Shown here: positions 3,048 to 63,703 of the stretch, in pieces | How the letters are laid out: each line of letters opens with the position of its first letter | How positions within the stretch are numbered: the stretch's first letter is position 1 | Source: an uncultured Eubacteriales bacterium | GTDB lineage: Bacteria > Bacillota > Clostridia > Christensenellales > Aristaeellaceae | NCBI GenBank assembly: GCA_902793325.1 | Contig: CADBCY010000004.1 | Coordinates: forward strand, 54,402 to 118,401 | Direction of reading: 5' to 3' | Length of the DNA: 64,000 bases | The notes under the pieces: model-generated | The model's database searches: none | What the model saw: only the letters and a program-made list of their open reading frames with translations | Told to the model about the DNA's origin: nothing | Program-made: the position numbers and the translations under genes

Positions 3048-3076
3048 AGTATACCACGCTTTGCCCCGCCCGGCAA
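3048..3076 (-). promoter_or_regulatory. sigma-A promoter for the Ig-like protein gene
   Basis: Minus strand TTGCCG, 17-base spacer, TATACT, 91 bases before the ATG. Confidence 0.75.
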
Positions 3077-3150
3077 CCGCAAAATCGCCCGCTGTGCCAT
3101 TCCCGCCGCCTGTTTTGGAATGCATCGGGGATGATTTCCCGCGCCGGCGC

Positions 3151-3179
3151 TGGACAGGCGCGGCGGGATCGCGTATAAT
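3151..3179 (+). promoter_or_regulatory. sigma-A promoter for the aldo/keto reductase gene
   Basis: TGGACA, 17-base spacer, TATAAT, 47 bases before the ATG at 3227; diverges from the promoter at 3048-3076. Confidence 0.75.
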
Positions 3180-53465: not shown

Positions 53466-53706
53466 GTCCGGGGCGGTCGGCCCCGGGACGACATCGTCGG
53501 ATTTATCCTGGAATGTGCGTTAGCCAAAGCTTTTACCCACAGATTCATAAAAGGATTCCGGGTCGGTTTGCAGATGCCAAGCCTCCGTTCGCAGTGGAAG
53601 GCAGCAAGCAGCCGCAGGTCTCCGCCCTGCCTGAGCGGCGGGTGAAAAAGTAGCGGCAGACGGCATTTTGGGATATTTTGGAGCTCTCACGGGCTCCTCT
53701 TTTTTT
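53466..53706 (+). ncRNA. ssrS: likely 6S RNA
   Basis: No frame in 53379-54070 looks like a protein. A promoter and a terminator (GGAGC..GCTCC then T7 at 53700-53706) bound a rod-shaped RNA. Closing stem: 53504-53517 (TATCCTGGAATGTG) with 53662-53675 (GGCATTTTGGGATA), continuous when wobbles are allowed. After a bubble, TTTTACCC (53531-53538) pairs with GGGTGAAAA (53640-53648). The closing-stem/bubble junction (GAATGTGCGTTAGCC and GCGGCAGACGGCATT) resembles the conserved part of 6S RNAs as I remember them. 6S RNA holds sigma-70-type polymerase in stationary phase. A leader of about 38 bases with two small hairpins precedes the rod and might be processed off. Confidence 0.6.
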
Positions 53707-57448: not shown

Positions 57449-57477
57449 TTGCAGCCTTCCCGCGAAACGGGTATAAT
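57449..57477 (+). promoter_or_regulatory. sigma-A promoter for the T-box operon
   Basis: TTGCAG, 17-base spacer, TATAAT. Confidence 0.85.
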
Positions 57478-57483
57478 CTGTCT

Positions 57484-57756
57484 AAACGCTGGGAAGGAAG
57501 CAAGTACTTCGCGCATGCGCACTTCAGAGAGCCGCCGGGTGGTGCAAGGCGGCGTGGGCGCGCGGGGGAATACGTTCCGGAGCGGCGCACCGAACGCGGG
57601 GTCCCCCGCCAGTAGGCTGCGACGGGCGCGCCCGTTACGGCGCGGGAATGCGCATGCATTCCGTGAGGGCGTCCGTCGCGAGGCGGCGTCAAACTGAGGT
57701 GGTACCACGGGTCATTCGCCCGTCCTCTGCAATACTATGCGGGGGACGGGCTTTTC
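57484..57756 (+). promoter_or_regulatory. T-box riboswitch, specifier UAC (tyrosine)
   Basis: Elements in order: AGTA, AGAGAG (57526-57531), distal loop GGTGCAAG (57541-57548), specifier loop GAATACGTTCCGGAG with UAC at 57571-57573, T-box AACTGAGGTGGTACCACGG (57692-57710) with UGGU (57700-57703), and the terminator GCCCGTCCTC..GGGGGACGGGC then TTTT (57718-57755). Alignment to the glyQS pattern GAAAGGCAUUCUUGAG puts UAC in the specifier site; U in UGGU fits the A discriminator of tRNA-Tyr. Uncharged tRNA-Tyr should prevent termination, so downstream genes turn on when tyrosine is scarce. Confidence 0.88.
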
Positions 57757-57785
57757 GTTCCCCATCCGCGAGGGAGGAAAAACAC

Positions 57786-59420
57786 ATGCCTATTACCGAG
57801 ATCCTGAAACAGAACGCCCGGAAATACGGGCCGGAGGTCGCCCTGGTGGAGATCAACCCCGAGATCCGGGAGGATCGCCGCGTGACCTGGAAGGAGTACG
57901 AGCTGATCGAGCGCGGCGCTTCCGAGGAGTTCCGCCGCGAGATCACCTGGTCCGTGTTCGACGAAAAGGCCAACCGCTGCGCCAACCTGCTGACCAGCCG
58001 CGGCATCAAAAAGGGCGACAAGGTGGCCATCCTGCTGATGAACTGCCTGGAATGGCTGCCCATCTACTTCGGCATCCTCAAGACCGGCGCGCTGGTGGTG
58101 CCGATGAACTACCGCTATTCCGCCGATGAGATCCAGTACTGCGCGGACCTGGCGGACGTGGACGCCATGTTCTTCGGGCCGGAGTTCATCGGCCGCGTGG
58201 AGGAGAGCATCGACAAGCTGCCCCGGGTGAAGCTGCTGTTCTACGTGGGCGACAACTGCCCCACCTTTGCCGAGAACTTCCTGCACCTGTCCGCCAACCA
58301 GCCCAGCTCCTTCAAGGACGTGGAGCTGACCGACCAGGACGACGCGGCCATCTACTTCTCCTCCGGCACCACGGGCTTCCCCAAGGCGATCCTGCACAAC
58401 CACGAGAGCCTGATGCACGCCTGCCGCGTGGAGCAGAAGCACCACGGCCAGACCCACAAGGACGTGTTCCTGTGCATCCCGCCGCTGTACCACACCGGCG
58501 CGAAGATGCACTGGTTCGGATCGTTCCTGGTGGGCGGCAAGGGCGTGCTGCTCAAGGGCGTCAAGCCGCTGACCATCATCAAGACCGCCGCCGAGGAGAA
58601 GTGCTCCATCGTGTGGCTGCTGGTGCCGTGGGCGCAGGACATCCTCGACGCCATCGACCGGGGCGAGATCAACCTGGACGACTACGACCTGTCCGCCTGG
58701 CGGCTGATGCACATCGGCGCGCAGCCCGTGCCGCGCAGCCTCATCAAGCGCTGGAAGGCCAAGTTCCCGAACCACCAGTACGACACCAACTACGGCCTGT
58801 CCGAGTCCATCGGCCCCGGCTGCGTGCACCTGGGCGTGGAGAACATCGACAAGGTCGGCGCCATCGGCATCCCCGGCTACGGCTGGCAGGCCCGCATCAT
58901 CGACGAGCAGGGCAACGACGTGCCCCAGGGCCAGGTCGGCGAGCTGGCCGTGAAGGGCCCCGGCGTCATGACCTGCTACTACAAGGACCCCAAGGCCACC
59001 GCCGAGGTGCTCCACGGCGACTGGCTGTGGACCGGCGACATGGCCATGCGCGACGAGGACGGCTTCATCTACCTCGTGGACCGCAAGAAGGACGTCATCA
59101 TCACCGGCGGCGAGAACCTGTACCCGGTGCAGATCGAGGACTTCCTGCGCGCCCATCCCGACATCAAGGACGTGGCCGTCATCGGCATCCCCCATCCCCG
59201 CCTGGGCGAAATCGCCGCGGCGATCATCGAGCTCAAGCCCGGCGCCACCACCACCGAAGAGGACATCAACGCCTTCTGCCAGGGCATGCCGCGCTACAAG
59301 CGCCCCCGCAAGATCATCTTCGCGGACGTGCCGCGCAACCCCACCGGCAAGATCGAAAAGCCCCTGCTGCGCAAGCGCTACAGCGCCGAAAAGCTCGTCG
59401 CCGAGCAGACGCAGCGGTAA
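57786..59420 (+). CDS. class I adenylate-forming acyl/aryl-CoA ligase under T-box control
   Basis: A 544-residue ANL-superfamily ligase. P-loop YFSSGTTGFPK (A3), substrate-side YGLSESIGPGC (A5), A7-like WLWTGDMAMRDEDGFIYLVDRKKD and A8/A10 lysine NPTGKIEKPLLR. It activates a carboxylate to acyl-AMP and then the CoA thioester in the cytoplasm. The family (fatty-acid, benzoate or arylacetate) cannot be fixed from motifs. First gene after the T-box; GGGAGG before the ATG. It is followed by a PaaK-like ligase, suggesting related substrates. Confidence 0.88.
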   Translation: MPITEILKQNARKYGPEVALVEINPEIREDRRVTWKEYELIERGASEEFRREITWSVFDEKANRCANLLTSRGIKKGDKVAILLMNCLEWLPIYFGILKTGALVVPMNYRYSADEIQYCADLADVDAMFFGPEFIGRVEESIDKLPRVKLLFYVGDNCPTFAENFLHLSANQPSSFKDVELTDQDDAAIYFSSGTTGFPKAILHNHESLMHACRVEQKHHGQTHKDVFLCIPPLYHTGAKMHWFGSFLVGGKGVLLKGVKPLTIIKTAAEEKCSIVWLLVPWAQDILDAIDRGEINLDDYDLSAWRLMHIGAQPVPRSLIKRWKAKFPNHQYDTNYGLSESIGPGCVHLGVENIDKVGAIGIPGYGWQARIIDEQGNDVPQGQVGELAVKGPGVMTCYYKDPKATAEVLHGDWLWTGDMAMRDEDGFIYLVDRKKDVIITGGENLYPVQIEDFLRAHPDIKDVAVIGIPHPRLGEIAAAIIELKPGATTTEEDINAFCQGMPRYKRPRKIIFADVPRNPTGKIEKPLLRKRYSAEKLVAEQTQR

Positions 59421-59508
59421 TGCGCGGGCGCCGAAGCGCCCCGCTCCGACCGTGCCCCCGGAAGAAGAGGCTTCCCGCTCAGCCATTCATTGAGGAGGAA
59501 TACCACCC

Positions 59509-60828
59509 ATGCCAACCAGAGAACACCTGATTTACAACCCAGCGCGGGAGTGCATGAGCCGGGACGAGCTGCGCGCCTGGCAGGGCGCGCGCCTGGCGGA
59601 AACCGTGAAGCGCGAGTACGAGAACGTGCCCATGTACCGCGCCCGCATGGATGACAAGGGCGTGAAGCCCGAGGACATCCGAAGCGTGGAGGACCTGAAG
59701 TACCTGCCCTTCATGGAGAAGACCGACCTGCGGGACTACTACCCCTTCGACCTGCTGGCCAGCCCCCGGTCCGAGATCGTGCGCATCCACGGCTCCTCGG
59801 GCACCACGGGCAAGCCCATCGTGTCCGGCTACACCGCCAACGACGTGGAGGTCTGGAGCGAGATGATGGCCCGCACCCTCACCGCCGCCGGCTGCACGAA
59901 GGAGGACATCGTGCACGTGTCCTACGGCCTGGGGCTGTTCACCGGCGGCTTCGGCGCGTACCAGGGCGCGAACAGGATCGGCGCCATGGTGGTGCCCATG
60001 TCCAGCGGCAACACCCAGCGCCAGATCATGATGATGAAGGACCTGGGCTCGACCATACTGTGCTGCACGCCCTCCTACGCCACCTACCTGGGCGAGACCA
60101 TCCGCGAGATGGGCCTGGTGCCCGGCCGCGATCTCAAGCTGAAGGCCGGCTGCTTCGGCGCCGAGCCCTGGACGGAGGAGATGCGGCTTCGCATCGAGGA
60201 ACTGCTGGGCGTGGACGCCTGCGACATCTACGGCCTGACGGAAATCGCCGGCCCCGGCGTGGCGTTCGAGTGCCTGGAGAAGCACGGCATGCACATCAAC
60301 GAGGACCACGTGATCGCCGAGATCATCAACCCCGCCACCGGCGAGCAGTTGCCCTACGGCGAATCCGGCGAGCTGGTGTTCACCACCATCACCAAGACCG
60401 GCATGCCCATGATGCGCTACCGCACCCACGACATCTGCACCCTGACCGACGAACAGTGCGCCTGCGGCCGCACGCTGGCGCGCATGGGCCGCATCACCGG
60501 CCGCACCGACGACATGCTGGTCATCCGCGGCGTGAACGTGTTCCCCAGCCAGATCGAAACGGTGCTGGTGAGCACCCACGGCGTGGCGCCGCACTACATG
60601 CTCATCGTGGATCGCGTGAACTCCTCCGATACGCTGGAGGTCCAGGTGGAGCTGACCGAGGACATGTTCGGCGACACCATCGGCCACATGGAGGCCGTGC
60701 GCAAGCACATCACCAACCAGATCAAGTCCGTGGTGGGCATCGCCACCAAGGTCAGCCTGGTGCCCCCCAAGTCCATCCCCCGCAGCGAAGGCAAGGCCAA
60801 GCGCGTGATCGACAAGAGGAAGCTCTGA
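59509..60828 (+). CDS. paaK: phenylacetate--CoA ligase family protein
   Basis: A 439-residue PaaK-type ANL enzyme, shorter than common ligases as usual for the family. HGSSGTTGKPIVSGYT is the nucleotide loop, YGLTEIAGPGVA the substrate loop, and MRYRTHDICTL plus CACGRTLARMGRITGRTDDM the PaaK-specific C-terminal part. It converts phenylacetate or related arylacetates (for example 4-hydroxyphenyl- or indoleacetate) to CoA thioesters. GGAGG precedes the ATG. Second gene of the T-box operon, followed by an ACT protein, a frequent partner of this ligase type. Confidence 0.9.
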   Translation: MPTREHLIYNPARECMSRDELRAWQGARLAETVKREYENVPMYRARMDDKGVKPEDIRSVEDLKYLPFMEKTDLRDYYPFDLLASPRSEIVRIHGSSGTTGKPIVSGYTANDVEVWSEMMARTLTAAGCTKEDIVHVSYGLGLFTGGFGAYQGANRIGAMVVPMSSGNTQRQIMMMKDLGSTILCCTPSYATYLGETIREMGLVPGRDLKLKAGCFGAEPWTEEMRLRIEELLGVDACDIYGLTEIAGPGVAFECLEKHGMHINEDHVIAEIINPATGEQLPYGESGELVFTTITKTGMPMMRYRTHDICTLTDEQCACGRTLARMGRITGRTDDMLVIRGVNVFPSQIETVLVSTHGVAPHYMLIVDRVNSSDTLEVQVELTEDMFGDTIGHMEAVRKHITNQIKSVVGIATKVSLVPPKSIPRSEGKAKRVIDKRKL

Positions 60829-60864
60829 GCCCCCGCTCCGAGTCATTCATTAAGGAGGCATACC

Positions 60865-61305
60865 ATGTTCATCAAGCAGATCTCCGTATTCCTGGAAAAC
60901 AAGGTCGGCGTGCTCCGGGAGGTCTCCGAACTGCTGGGCCGGGCGAACATCGACATGATGGCCCTGGCCGTGGCGGACACCCAGAGCTTCGGCATCGTGC
61001 GCATCATCGTGAAGGATCACGAAATCGACCCCGCGCTGGACATCCTGCGCGCCAACGGCTACATCGCCAAGGTCAACAACGTCATCTGCGCCGAGGTGCA
61101 GGACAAGCCCATGGGCCTGGCCAGCCTGCTGGCCATCATCGAGGAGGCCGGGCTGTCCGTGGAGTACATGTACTCCTTCCTCCGCGGCTCCACCGGGGGC
61201 CGCGCCCGCATGATCCTCCGCCTCTCCGACGGGCAGAAGGGCCTGAAGGTGTTCGACCTCCACGGCATCCGCGTGCTGGAGCAGGCCGAGATCGACGCGC
61301 TGTAG
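60865..61305 (+). CDS. tandem ACT-domain amino-acid-binding protein
   Basis: A 146-residue protein made of two ACT domains (IKQISVFLENKVGVLREVSE; PMGLASLLAIIEEAGLSVEY). Such stand-alone proteins often sit beside PaaK-type ligases and indolepyruvate:ferredoxin oxidoreductase genes, and probably sense an aromatic or branched-chain amino acid. AAGGAGG precedes the ATG. Last gene of the T-box operon. Confidence 0.9.
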   Translation: MFIKQISVFLENKVGVLREVSELLGRANIDMMALAVADTQSFGIVRIIVKDHEIDPALDILRANGYIAKVNNVICAEVQDKPMGLASLLAIIEEAGLSVEYMYSFLRGSTGGRARMILRLSDGQKGLKVFDLHGIRVLEQAEIDAL

Positions 61306-61381: not shown

Positions 61382-62434
61382 TCAGAACATAATGCTGATC
61401 GGCAGGCGGTTGGCCTCGATGTCCTCCTGCCTGTGGCCGAAGGTCTTGCAGTTGTACTGGTCGATGGCGTCCCAGAGCGCCTTGTAGGTGCCCTCGTACA
61501 GCGAGCCCGGACCGCCCTGGGTGATGCAGGGGATGAAGTACTTGCCGTCGGCGGCGGCGCCGCAGGTGTTGATGGCGTTCAGCGCGGCCTTCTCGCAGTC
61601 GGCGTAGGTCCAGCCGTCGAAGTCCACCTGCTTGTTGTCGATCTCGCCCATGAAGGTCATCTTGCCGCCGTACTGTTTGATCAGCGCCGGCACGTCGTTG
61701 GAGTGCATGCAGCCCTGCCACACGTCGATGCCCATTTCGATCATGATCGGCAGCAGGTTCGCGCAGTAGCTGTCGGAGTGGTGGATGATCAGATCCACGC
61801 CGTGGCTCTTGTAGTAGCCGTAGATCTCCTTGTAGGGCTCCAGGAAGAAGTCCTCGAACACGCTCGGGCGCAGGAAGGAATTGCGCTCGCTGCCGAAGTC
61901 GTCGTGGTGGAAGATGGCGTCGGGGTGCAGGTTGGCGCAGATGCCCTCGGCCAGCTCCAGCTCCCAGTCGGTCAGGTAGCGGATCAGGTCGTGCATCTCG
62001 TCGGGGTACTCCATGTAGTTCATCAGCGCCTCTTCCATCGAGCACAGGTGGTGCGTCTGCTCAAACAGGCCGGGCGCGACGAAGGTGGCCTTGAACGCCT
62101 TGGTGCCGTCCACGGCGGCGTACATGCCCTTGCACACGTCCCACAGCTCGTCGGGGAACTTGAGCGACGGCGCCTTGACGTACTTGCGCCACTCCTCGAT
62201 GTCCTTGACGACGATCTTGTCCGGGGTGTGCACCGGGAACGCGCCGGGCACGTTGCCGGGGAACGAATTCGTGACGCCCCAGGCGTTGACCACGTTCATA
62301 TCGCCCTTCTTCAGCAGGGGCGAGGACAGCAGGAACGGGTGGAACAGCAGGGCGATGGCCTCGTACTGGTTGACGAAGCGGTCGGGCTTGCCGCCGCGAA
62401 TGACTTCCCACATATTCTGTTTTGCCGTAAGCAT
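61382..62434 (-). CDS. uroporphyrinogen decarboxylase-family (URO-D/MtaA-like) methyltransferase
   Basis: A 350-residue URO-D-fold protein. It is of the MtaA/MtbA-like class, which moves methyl groups between corrinoid proteins and thiols, rather than HemE: it lacks the HemE N-terminus and has possible zinc ligands in IIHHSDSYCANLLP and WQGCMHSND. Location next to a methyltetrahydrofolate:corrinoid methyltransferase and a corrinoid protein supports a demethylation role. GAGAGAA precedes the ATG; the promoter is at 62596-62624. Confidence 0.8.
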   Translation of the reverse strand: MLTAKQNMWEVIRGGKPDRFVNQYEAIALLFHPFLLSSPLLKKGDMNVVNAWGVTNSFPGNVPGAFPVHTPDKIVVKDIEEWRKYVKAPSLKFPDELWDVCKGMYAAVDGTKAFKATFVAPGLFEQTHHLCSMEEALMNYMEYPDEMHDLIRYLTDWELELAEGICANLHPDAIFHHDDFGSERNSFLRPSVFEDFFLEPYKEIYGYYKSHGVDLIIHHSDSYCANLLPIMIEMGIDVWQGCMHSNDVPALIKQYGGKMTFMGEIDNKQVDFDGWTYADCEKAALNAINTCGAAADGKYFIPCITQGGPGSLYEGTYKALWDAIDQYNCKTFGHRQEDIEANRLPISIMF

Positions 62435-62896: not shown

Positions 62897-63703
62897 ATGA
62901 TTATCATCGGCGAGAAGATCAACGGTTCCATCCCCGCCGTGGCGGACGCCATCGCGCGCCGCGACAGCGAATTCATCAAGGAGCGCGCCCGCATTCAGGA
63001 CGAGGCCGGCGCCACCTTCATCGACTGCTGCGCCTCCGTGCCGGAAGCGGAAGAGGTCGAGACGCTCAAGTGGATGATCGACTGCATCCAGGAGGTTTCC
63101 GACCTGCCCATTTCCGTGGACAGCCCCAGCGCCCGCGTGCTGGCGGAAGCCTACAAGTTCTGCAAGCGGCCCGGCCTGTTCAACTCCGTCTCCGGCGAGG
63201 GCGACAAAATCGACATCATCTTCCCGATCATGAAGGAGAATCCCGGCTGGGAGTGCATCGCGCTGTGCTCGGACGACACCGGCATCCCGAAGAACGCCGC
63301 CGACCGCCTGAAGGTGTTCGACAAGATCATGGCCAAGGCCAAGGAGTACGGCATCGCCCCGCGGCGCCTGCACATCGACCCGCTGGTGGAGATGCTCTGC
63401 ACCTCCGAAAACGGCATCGAGACCAACGAGGAGGTCATCTCCACCATCCGCGAGCGGTATGACGACATCCACATCACCGCCGCCATTTCCAACATCTCCT
63501 TCAACCTGCCCGTGCGCAAGATGGTGAACCTGGGCTTCACGGTGCTGGCCATGAAGGCCGGCCTCGACAGCGCCATCCTCGACCCCACCAACCGCGACAT
63601 GATGGGCGTGATCTTCGCCACCGAGGCGCTGCTGGGCGAGGACGACTACTGCATGGAGTACATCACCGCTTACCGCGAGGGCCTGTTCGGACCGAAGAAG
63701 TAA
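62897..63703 (+). CDS. methyltetrahydrofolate:corrinoid protein methyltransferase (MtvA/AcsE-like)
   Basis: A 268-residue pterin-binding TIM-barrel protein. It opens with IIIGEKINGSIPAVADAI and has ATFIDCCASVPEAEE, LPISVDSPSARVL and ITAAISNISFNLP, the folate-site blocks of MeTr-type enzymes. It transfers the methyl group between the corrinoid protein and tetrahydrofolate, feeding one-carbon units to folate metabolism. AGGGGG precedes the ATG. The corrinoid protein follows 199 bases downstream. Confidence 0.9.
   Translation: MIIIGEKINGSIPAVADAIARRDSEFIKERARIQDEAGATFIDCCASVPEAEEVETLKWMIDCIQEVSDLPISVDSPSARVLAEAYKFCKRPGLFNSVSGEGDKIDIIFPIMKENPGWECIALCSDDTGIPKNAADRLKVFDKIMAKAKEYGIAPRRLHIDPLVEMLCTSENGIETNEEVISTIRERYDDIHITAAISNISFNLPVRKMVNLGFTVLAMKAGLDSAILDPTNRDMMGVIFATEALLGEDDYCMEYITAYREGLFGPKK

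Follow-up and report, generated by a model that had tools for sequence, protein, structure and literature searches.

A tyrosine-specific T-box leader in an uncultured Eubacteriales bacterium very probably switches on genes for the conversion of arylacetates to tyrosine when tyrosine runs short. The leader lies in a 64,000-nucleotide stretch of contig CADBCY010000004.1 (the window, whose coordinates are used below), where it precedes the genes for an acyl/aryl-coenzyme A (CoA) ligase of the ANL family (hereafter ANL), a PaaK-like arylacetate-CoA ligase, and a protein with a pair of ACT domains. The evidence comes from the RNA structure, the specifier codon, the gene families, the conserved co-regulation, and the order of the genes. 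A sequence-only reading of the window had proposed a tyrosine-starvation pathway through indolepyruvate:ferredoxin oxidoreductase (IOR, encoded by iorA and iorB). Our analysis largely supports this proposal, except that ANL, and not the PaaK-type enzyme, appears to be the ligase of the tyrosine branch.

The leader (57482–57730, + strand) matches the full RF00230 model with 99.5 bits (cmscan, E 9.9e-21), above the gathering score of 93. Like known T-boxes it contains the AGUA/GAA loop of Stem I, AGAGA, GGUG, the UGGU bulge, and a terminator and antiterminator; the score and a strong terminator thus bear out the sequence-only reading, which had seen every T-box landmark here. The intrinsic terminator (57718–57751, +) has 14 pairs followed by TTTT and is kept in relatives. 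Its hairpin folds at -29 kcal/mol, and none of 200 shuffled sequences was equally good. Its overlap with the antiterminator helix (57696–57727, +) in the fold makes the two structures mutually exclusive, as is expected of RF00230 members. The antiterminator fold alone is not beyond shuffled sequences (42 of 200 were as good), nor is Stem I (39 of 200), although it folds as expected. The support for these two elements comes from the covariance model and from covariation, with double changes that keep the structure at 29 of 57 pairs in an alignment of 21 leaders. As these leaders were collected by motif and include the query, the covariation is structural evidence rather than an independent discovery test. 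Directly 5' of the leader, the promoter implied by the earlier reading is visible by eye as TTGCAG-17-TATAAT (57449–57477, +), but a consensus scan did not count it. On the other side, 34 bases separate the terminator from the start of the ANL gene at 57786.

The specifier codon is UAC, for tyrosine (57571–57573, +). It lies in the 3' side of the specifier loop, GAA-UAC-G (57568–57574), which is closed by GGAA/UUCC in both the covariance-model alignment and an independent fold. An internal control is provided by the T-box before leuS in the same genome (gene identity checked by profile), whose GAA-CUC-G-UUCC has the same loop geometry as GAA-UAC-G-UUCC in the query and whose CUC encodes leucine. 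The published rule that the codon stands 2–4 bases from the end of the bulge also gives UAC in the query loop (PMC7778990; here and below, PMC numbers stand for excerpts of the papers). The UGGU of the antiterminator bulge (57700–57703, +) fits as well: among the 27 tRNA genes found in ten stretches of the genome, tRNA-Tyr(GUA) has discriminator A followed by CCA, and its ACCA end pairs with UGGU. Both assignments had already been made from the letters of the window, and both hold. The genome has 19 T-boxes, the genes downstream of which were mostly named from their N-termini. In 10 of the 11 that precede aminoacyl-tRNA synthetase or asparagine synthetase genes, the codon fits the gene (Phe, Leu, Asp, Val, Cys, Met, Ile, Pro, and Asn in the model register, and Ser before serS by the bulge rule alone); the specifier of the alaS T-box could not be read.

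Family profiles agree with the three genes that had been recognized behind the leader. ANL (57786–59420, +; 544 aa), the proposed 4-hydroxyphenylacetate-CoA ligase, has the AMP-binding domain (PF00501, 239.3 bits) and the C-terminal domain (PF13193, 55.6 bits) of its family. The solved structures nearest to it in sequence are FadD13, FadD5, and feruloyl- and 4-coumarate-CoA ligases, from which its substrate cannot be told. The PaaK-like ligase (59509–60828, +; 439 aa) matches TIGR02155 and PDB entry 2y27 (E 2.4e-129) and is the sole full-length TIGR02155 match in the genome. The third gene (60865–61305, +; 146 aa) encodes the ACT domain pair (PF19571, ACT_8), a proposed feedback sensor. Relatives of it lie beside paaK or iorB in 54 of 60 PaaK loci and in 22 of 29 IorA loci that we compared.

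Two other T-boxes of this genome also read UAC, one before the gene for an SSS sodium symporter (L005, loop GAA-U-UAC-A) and one before an aminotransferase gene (L009, loop GAA-UAC-C). The genes for IorA and IorB lie elsewhere in the genome (C8) and have no T-box. IorA scores 682.8 bits against the TIGR03336 cut-off of 650.9, with one copy over the NCBIfam cut-off, and IorB scores 277.7 bits against a cut-off of 230 for NF005325; the oxidoreductase on which the earlier proposal depended is thus encoded. PaaA and PaaC were not found in the genome, which speaks against aerobic phenylacetate degradation; no search was aimed at anaerobic ring-reduction genes.

The arrangement is conserved in relatives. 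Among the 60 PaaK loci, mostly from rumen and gut metagenome bins, ANL precedes paaK in 26, in two of which (L062 and L071) ANL is cut. An intact tyrosine T-box stands before ANL in 18 of the 24 uncut loci, as detected with a motif that demanded GAA but not the codon. The genomes behind these 18 loci were taken as the window's clade. The aminotransferase occurs in 17 of them, with a UAC T-box at all 17 loci, and the symporter in 16, with a UAC T-box at 14; the two exceptions are L248, which lacks upstream sequence, and L252, where a remnant with antiterminator and terminator has no Stem I. In L224, L225, and L246 Stem I was found, but the motif missed the antiterminator. Three unlinked operons, headed by the aminotransferase, the symporter, and ANL, therefore share one specificity, and IorA is present in 17 of the 18 genomes. 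Across the 60 loci, a strict T-box motif was tried on 360 predicted gene starts and matched at ten, every one of them an ANL start. Because it missed eight other ANL leaders and three paaK leaders, this is evidence of specificity and not of sensitivity. A covariance model (R1) built from the ANL-paaK leaders finds these again by construction; its new matches were L086 and three on the opposite strand (L051, L063, and L082), and, as it was trained mainly on UAC leaders, it may favour UAC.

A link between the T-box and the oxidoreductase is seen in the order at large, where 136 of 248 genomes encode IorA. Neighbourhoods were taken for the best 30 of the IorA loci, one of which is the own locus, and the other 29 were extended. 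The slot upstream of iorA is occupied by ANL in 14 of the 29, by a PaaK relative in 11, and by neither in four; these ANL relatives are 66–69% identical and precede iorA or SSS-iorA. The symporter belongs to the same gene run as iorA in four loci and lies between ANL and iorA in each. Tyrosine T-boxes head such operons in four relatives, all with UAC as specifier, so that the comparison with related genomes called for by the sequence-only reading was positive. The order is T-box-ANL-SSS-iorA-iorB-paaK-ACT in L182 and L186 (in the latter SSS matched in two pieces), T-box-ANL-SSS-iorA-iorB in L190, where no paaK or ACT was seen after iorB, and T-box-ANL-iorA-iorB-paaK-ACT, without SSS, in L188. 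No T-box match below E 0.05 was found in the other 25 loci, which indicates that control by a T-box depends on the lineage.

In 34 of the 60 loci no ANL gene accompanies paaK, and in 15 of these the control of paaK points to phenylalanine. In 12 of the 34, a short Phe-rich frame, e.g., RFFEGLFFWFFGFIF in L052, ends 87–125 bases before paaK. These leaders were first picked by eye, but at least five Phe in 16 residues occur in 11 of the 12 and in only 2 of 348 control upstream regions, none of which reached six. For these eleven leaders, 0–3 of 1000 shuffles were equally Phe-rich; the remaining one, L076, is weak, with four Phe in 16 residues and 42 of 1000 shuffles as high. In the aligned paaK leaders, the terminator has 100% of its cells paired and double changes at three pairs (matched by 2 of 500 shuffles), and the antiterminator, the helix of which was drawn from L052, has 94.4% paired and three double-change pairs (78 of 500 as high), with a covariation score reached by 6 of 500. 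The two overlap at columns 263–270 and are thus exclusive, as in an attenuator. At three further loci (L082, L085, and L086) paaK carries a T-box with the phenylalanine codon UUC, and in L085 and L086 the gene order is paaK-iorA-iorB-ACT. The conserved GAA reads AAG in L086, and the loop of L085 would also permit UCU, but UGGU speaks against tRNA-Ser, the discriminator of which is G. The remaining 19 of the 34 loci show no recognized device or are cut. A stretch with five Phe in 16 residues before paaK in L102 (Calditrichaeota) was not counted, as its frame is unlike the others.

Taken over all leaders, the specifier is UAC in 28 of 28 T-boxes that head ANL and UUC in three of three that head paaK, although these counts come from related sequences and hence are not independent. 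ANL is encoded elsewhere in 17 of 20 genomes picked from the 34 ANL-free paaK loci, and 5 of the 18 ANL loci so found have a UAC T-box; that of L211, with an imperfect motif, lies about 270 bases upstream of ANL. In four genomes a phenylalanine device on paaK coexists with a tyrosine T-box on ANL (L044/L209, L046/L208, L082/L207, and L086/L211), and in L207 the symporter follows ANL. We assign the tyrosine branch to ANL rather than PaaK because paaK alone is phenylalanine-regulated in 15 of 34 loci. On this sequence evidence, ANL is most likely a 4-hydroxyphenylacetate ligase and PaaK a phenylacetate ligase, the two being joined under one tyrosine T-box in the window's clade. We lean, by a little, towards a wider two-branch recycling system in gut and rumen Clostridia, in which tyrosine T-boxes would govern an SSS importer, a new family of ANL ligases, and the aminotransferase, phenylalanine T-boxes or leader peptides would govern PaaK, and both branches would share IorAB.

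From these observations we infer the tRNA-dependent switching, the substrates, the direction of flux, and the role of the ACT protein. When tyrosine is short, uncharged tRNA-Tyr would read the UAC of the leader and dock its ACCA end on UGGU, and the docked tRNA would stabilize the antiterminator and let RNA polymerase enter the ANL, paaK, and ACT genes, while the two other tyrosine T-boxes would simultaneously turn on the symporter and the aminotransferase. The symporter would then import 4-hydroxyphenylacetate, ANL would make its CoA thioester, as PaaK would that of phenylacetate, and IorAB would add CO2 with reduced ferredoxin to give 4-hydroxyphenylpyruvate, which the aminotransferase would convert to tyrosine. 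The ACT protein may serve as a sensor of this product. T-boxes and leader-peptide attenuators are devices that switch genes on under amino acid shortage. That two such unrelated kinds of device sense a shortage of tyrosine or phenylalanine here indicates that the pathway most likely runs, so far as sequences can tell, towards biosynthesis and not breakdown.

The opposite direction has to be considered, as gut anaerobes are reported to make arylacetates from aromatic amino acids via such oxidoreductases (PMC13290082, PMC13285125), the oxidative direction being described for acetogens (PMC13290082), and as many homologous operons have no T-box. The genes would then run in an oxidative, Stickland-like manner from tyrosine or phenylalanine to the arylacetates, and the T-box would be an accident of gene order. 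However, induction by amino acid shortage has the wrong sign for degradation, and this sign recurs in two unrelated devices, the T-boxes (UAC before ANL, SSS, and the aminotransferase; UUC before paaK) and the Phe-rich leaders of paaK. AMP-forming ligases, moreover, favour formation of the thioester (PMC13285125), and on the energetics of such ligases a ligase beside IOR in Bacteroides was proposed to be biosynthetic, with methanogens cited (PMC13285125); formation of phenylalanine from phenylacetate in the rumen is cited as well (PMC7356843). We therefore consider degradation improbable. Somewhat less improbable, though still unlikely, is that the symporter simply imports tyrosine and the aminotransferase serves ordinary tyrosine synthesis by the shikimate route, so that ANL and PaaK alone would act on aryl acids, perhaps cinnamate or phenylpropionate. 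T-boxes are common on amino acid transporters (PMC2494555). The symporter resembles the PutP and PanF families, under their cut-offs, and ANL is similar both to FadD13 and to 4-coumarate ligases. Against this stands the position of the symporter, between ANL and iorA in four operons and after ANL in L207. IorAB, by the chemistry of its family, would need arylacetyl-CoA and not cinnamoyl-CoA. Most improbable of all is a threonine specifier: the query loop is one base below the Rfam consensus length, with its codon one base closer to GAA, so that the standard 8-base register, GAA-U-ACG-U, would give ACG. This reading was rejected, since the same short loop yields gene-fitting codons in leuS (GAA-CUC-G) and in two Trp T-boxes (GAA-UGG-G) of the genome, 12 of 14 symporter leaders hold UAC in a longer loop (GAA-U-UAC), and all 28 ANL leaders have UAC, whereas the base after it may be A, G, or C.

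Several observations nevertheless weigh against the route from arylacetates to tyrosine. ANL falls under the cut-offs of all 25 NCBIfam families listed for it, and the second ligase falls under the TIGR02155 equivalog cut-off (555.9 against 646.3 bits), which is why we call it PaaK-like and not PaaK. The IOR of B. thetaiotaomicron is cited as degradative (PMC13285125). Most of the relatives are metagenome bins, and 6 of the 24 ANL-paaK loci have no intact T-box: L069 and L077 keep the start of the leader and the antiterminator/terminator but miss Stem I, L056 and L059 keep the terminator alone, and in L070 and L078 nothing is visible. The losses of Stem I may be either real deletions or assembly faults. 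None of the 18 iorAB loci of the window's clade has a T-box, and a check there for Phe/Tyr/Trp-rich leaders gave at most 4 of 16 residues. T-boxes are also missing from 10 of the 14 ANL-headed IorA loci of the order and from 13 of the 18 ANL loci in genomes with ANL-free paaK. The genome also has a TyrA gene (C20), among genes read as DAHP synthase, AroB, AroC, and PheA, a shikimate cluster by this reading, which makes an arylacetate route dispensable for tyrosine; the ANL-IorAB route would be a second, salvage route beside the classical one. The assignment of branches is affected by Phe-rich frames before ANL in 2 of the 18 loci, both from the 13 that lack a T-box: L215 (6 of 16 residues) and L221 (7 of 16). 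These frames argue against a purely tyrosine-linked ANL. The stretch in L221 could be a Phe leader peptide, and in L214, L215, and L219, which have no tyrosine T-box there either, a T-rich stretch before ANL has Phe in several frames and no single conserved short frame. When we asked for a residue shared by at least 90% of 27 Tyr-group sequences and absent from all 15 Phe-group ones, position 311 alone separated the PaaK proteins, so that no argument from the binding pocket can be drawn; the sequence of PaaK hardly altered along with its regulation. Because of L215 and L221, and because the full six-gene operon occurs in two loci only, we hold the two-branch reading less firmly.

Other T-boxes of the genome were noted as well. 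An Ile T-box (AUC) precedes a gene for an HTH-cupin-ANL fusion near a VorB-type gene (G000:C2; L014; L028, 1426–3690; L042, 6485–8839). The best match of the fusion is the acyl-CoA synthetase MbcS family, under the cut-off, and the pair looks like a branched-chain analogue for the conversion of 2-methylbutyrate to isoleucine; a T-box in L082 (2752–2866, -), with AUC as the probable codon, heads such a fusion gene as well. A second Ile T-box (G000:C3; L002; L021, 1076–5681) lies before a TRAP transporter (DctP over cut-off), which possibly takes up a branched-chain precursor, and an IlvD-like gene named by reading. A T-box with CUC (Leu) by the bulge rule stands before a LeuA-like gene (HMGL-like and LeuA dimer domains), and a long oxidoreductase that carries a POR domain lies further downstream (G000:C46; L001, L020); L051 has a similar T-box (3066–3178, -) before a reading frame similar to the LeuA-like one. 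A Trp T-box (UGG, UGGC) precedes a TrpB-like gene with PRK12391 over the cut-off (G000:C24; L013; L027, 9385–10869). In the window itself, the operon adjoins a weak methylcobalamin methyltransferase-like gene (61382–62434, -) and a methyltetrahydrofolate:corrinoid methyltransferase gene (62897–63703, +; PRK07535 over cut-off), and a 6S RNA (RF00013, 53 bits) lies at 53502–53678 (+).

Tyrosine T-boxes are known on tyrS and on operons for tyrosine synthesis in the B. cereus group (PMC2494555). The targets differ here, being aryl-CoA ligases, an SSS symporter, and IorAB operons, and neither phenylacetate-type nor CoA ligase targets are mentioned in the main text of the T-box papers searched by term. 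Leader-peptide attenuators for phenylalanine, of the pheA/pheST type, are likewise familiar. The paaK leaders share with them the short Phe-rich frame and the exclusive antiterminator and terminator, but are placed before paaK, and occur in the relatives rather than in the window. Reductive carboxylation of arylacetates via IOR is known, with Tersteegen (1997) among the literature cited. The methanogens and rumen bacteria credited with this route have the same enzyme set, an arylacetate-CoA ligase and IorAB (PMC13285125, PMC7356843), to which amino-acid-specific RNA control, the ANL ligase, and the symporter are added here. The oxidative tyrosine fermentation by HpdDEFG-HpdJ-HpdK also interconverts 4-hydroxyphenylpyruvate and 4-hydroxyphenylacetate; however, it works with a phosphate transferase and a kinase and generates ATP, in contrast to the AMP-forming ligases, IOR-type enzyme, and starvation control seen here (PMC13285125). 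The literature searched yielded no mention of T-boxes or attenuators on paaK, IOR, or 4-hydroxyphenylacetate genes, although an earlier one is possible, and the main text of neither PMC13285125 nor PMC13290082 uses the term 'T-box'. Both the sensor, a standard T-box, and the chemistry are thus known, whereas their combination, the symporter, and the assignment of the ANL ligase look new.

The direction in which IOR and aryl-CoA ligases work in gut anaerobes is debated. A paper of 2026 suggests biosynthesis in Bacteroides on energetic grounds and cites a study that links the same enzyme to the production of phenylacetate (PMC13285125). For the present lineage, two unrelated RNA sensors with a starvation sign indicate the intended direction, as far as sequence can, and they also provide substrate predictions for a family of ANL ligases and for an SSS transporter. 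If the two-branch reading is true, the specifier codon would reveal what each ligase and transporter acts on, and the recycling system would live off what Stickland fermenters excrete. Tyrosine is apparently rebuilt from 4-hydroxyphenylacetate, which other gut and rumen microbes release as waste, and this implies that rumen and gut bacteria may take back arylacetates that would otherwise reach the host.

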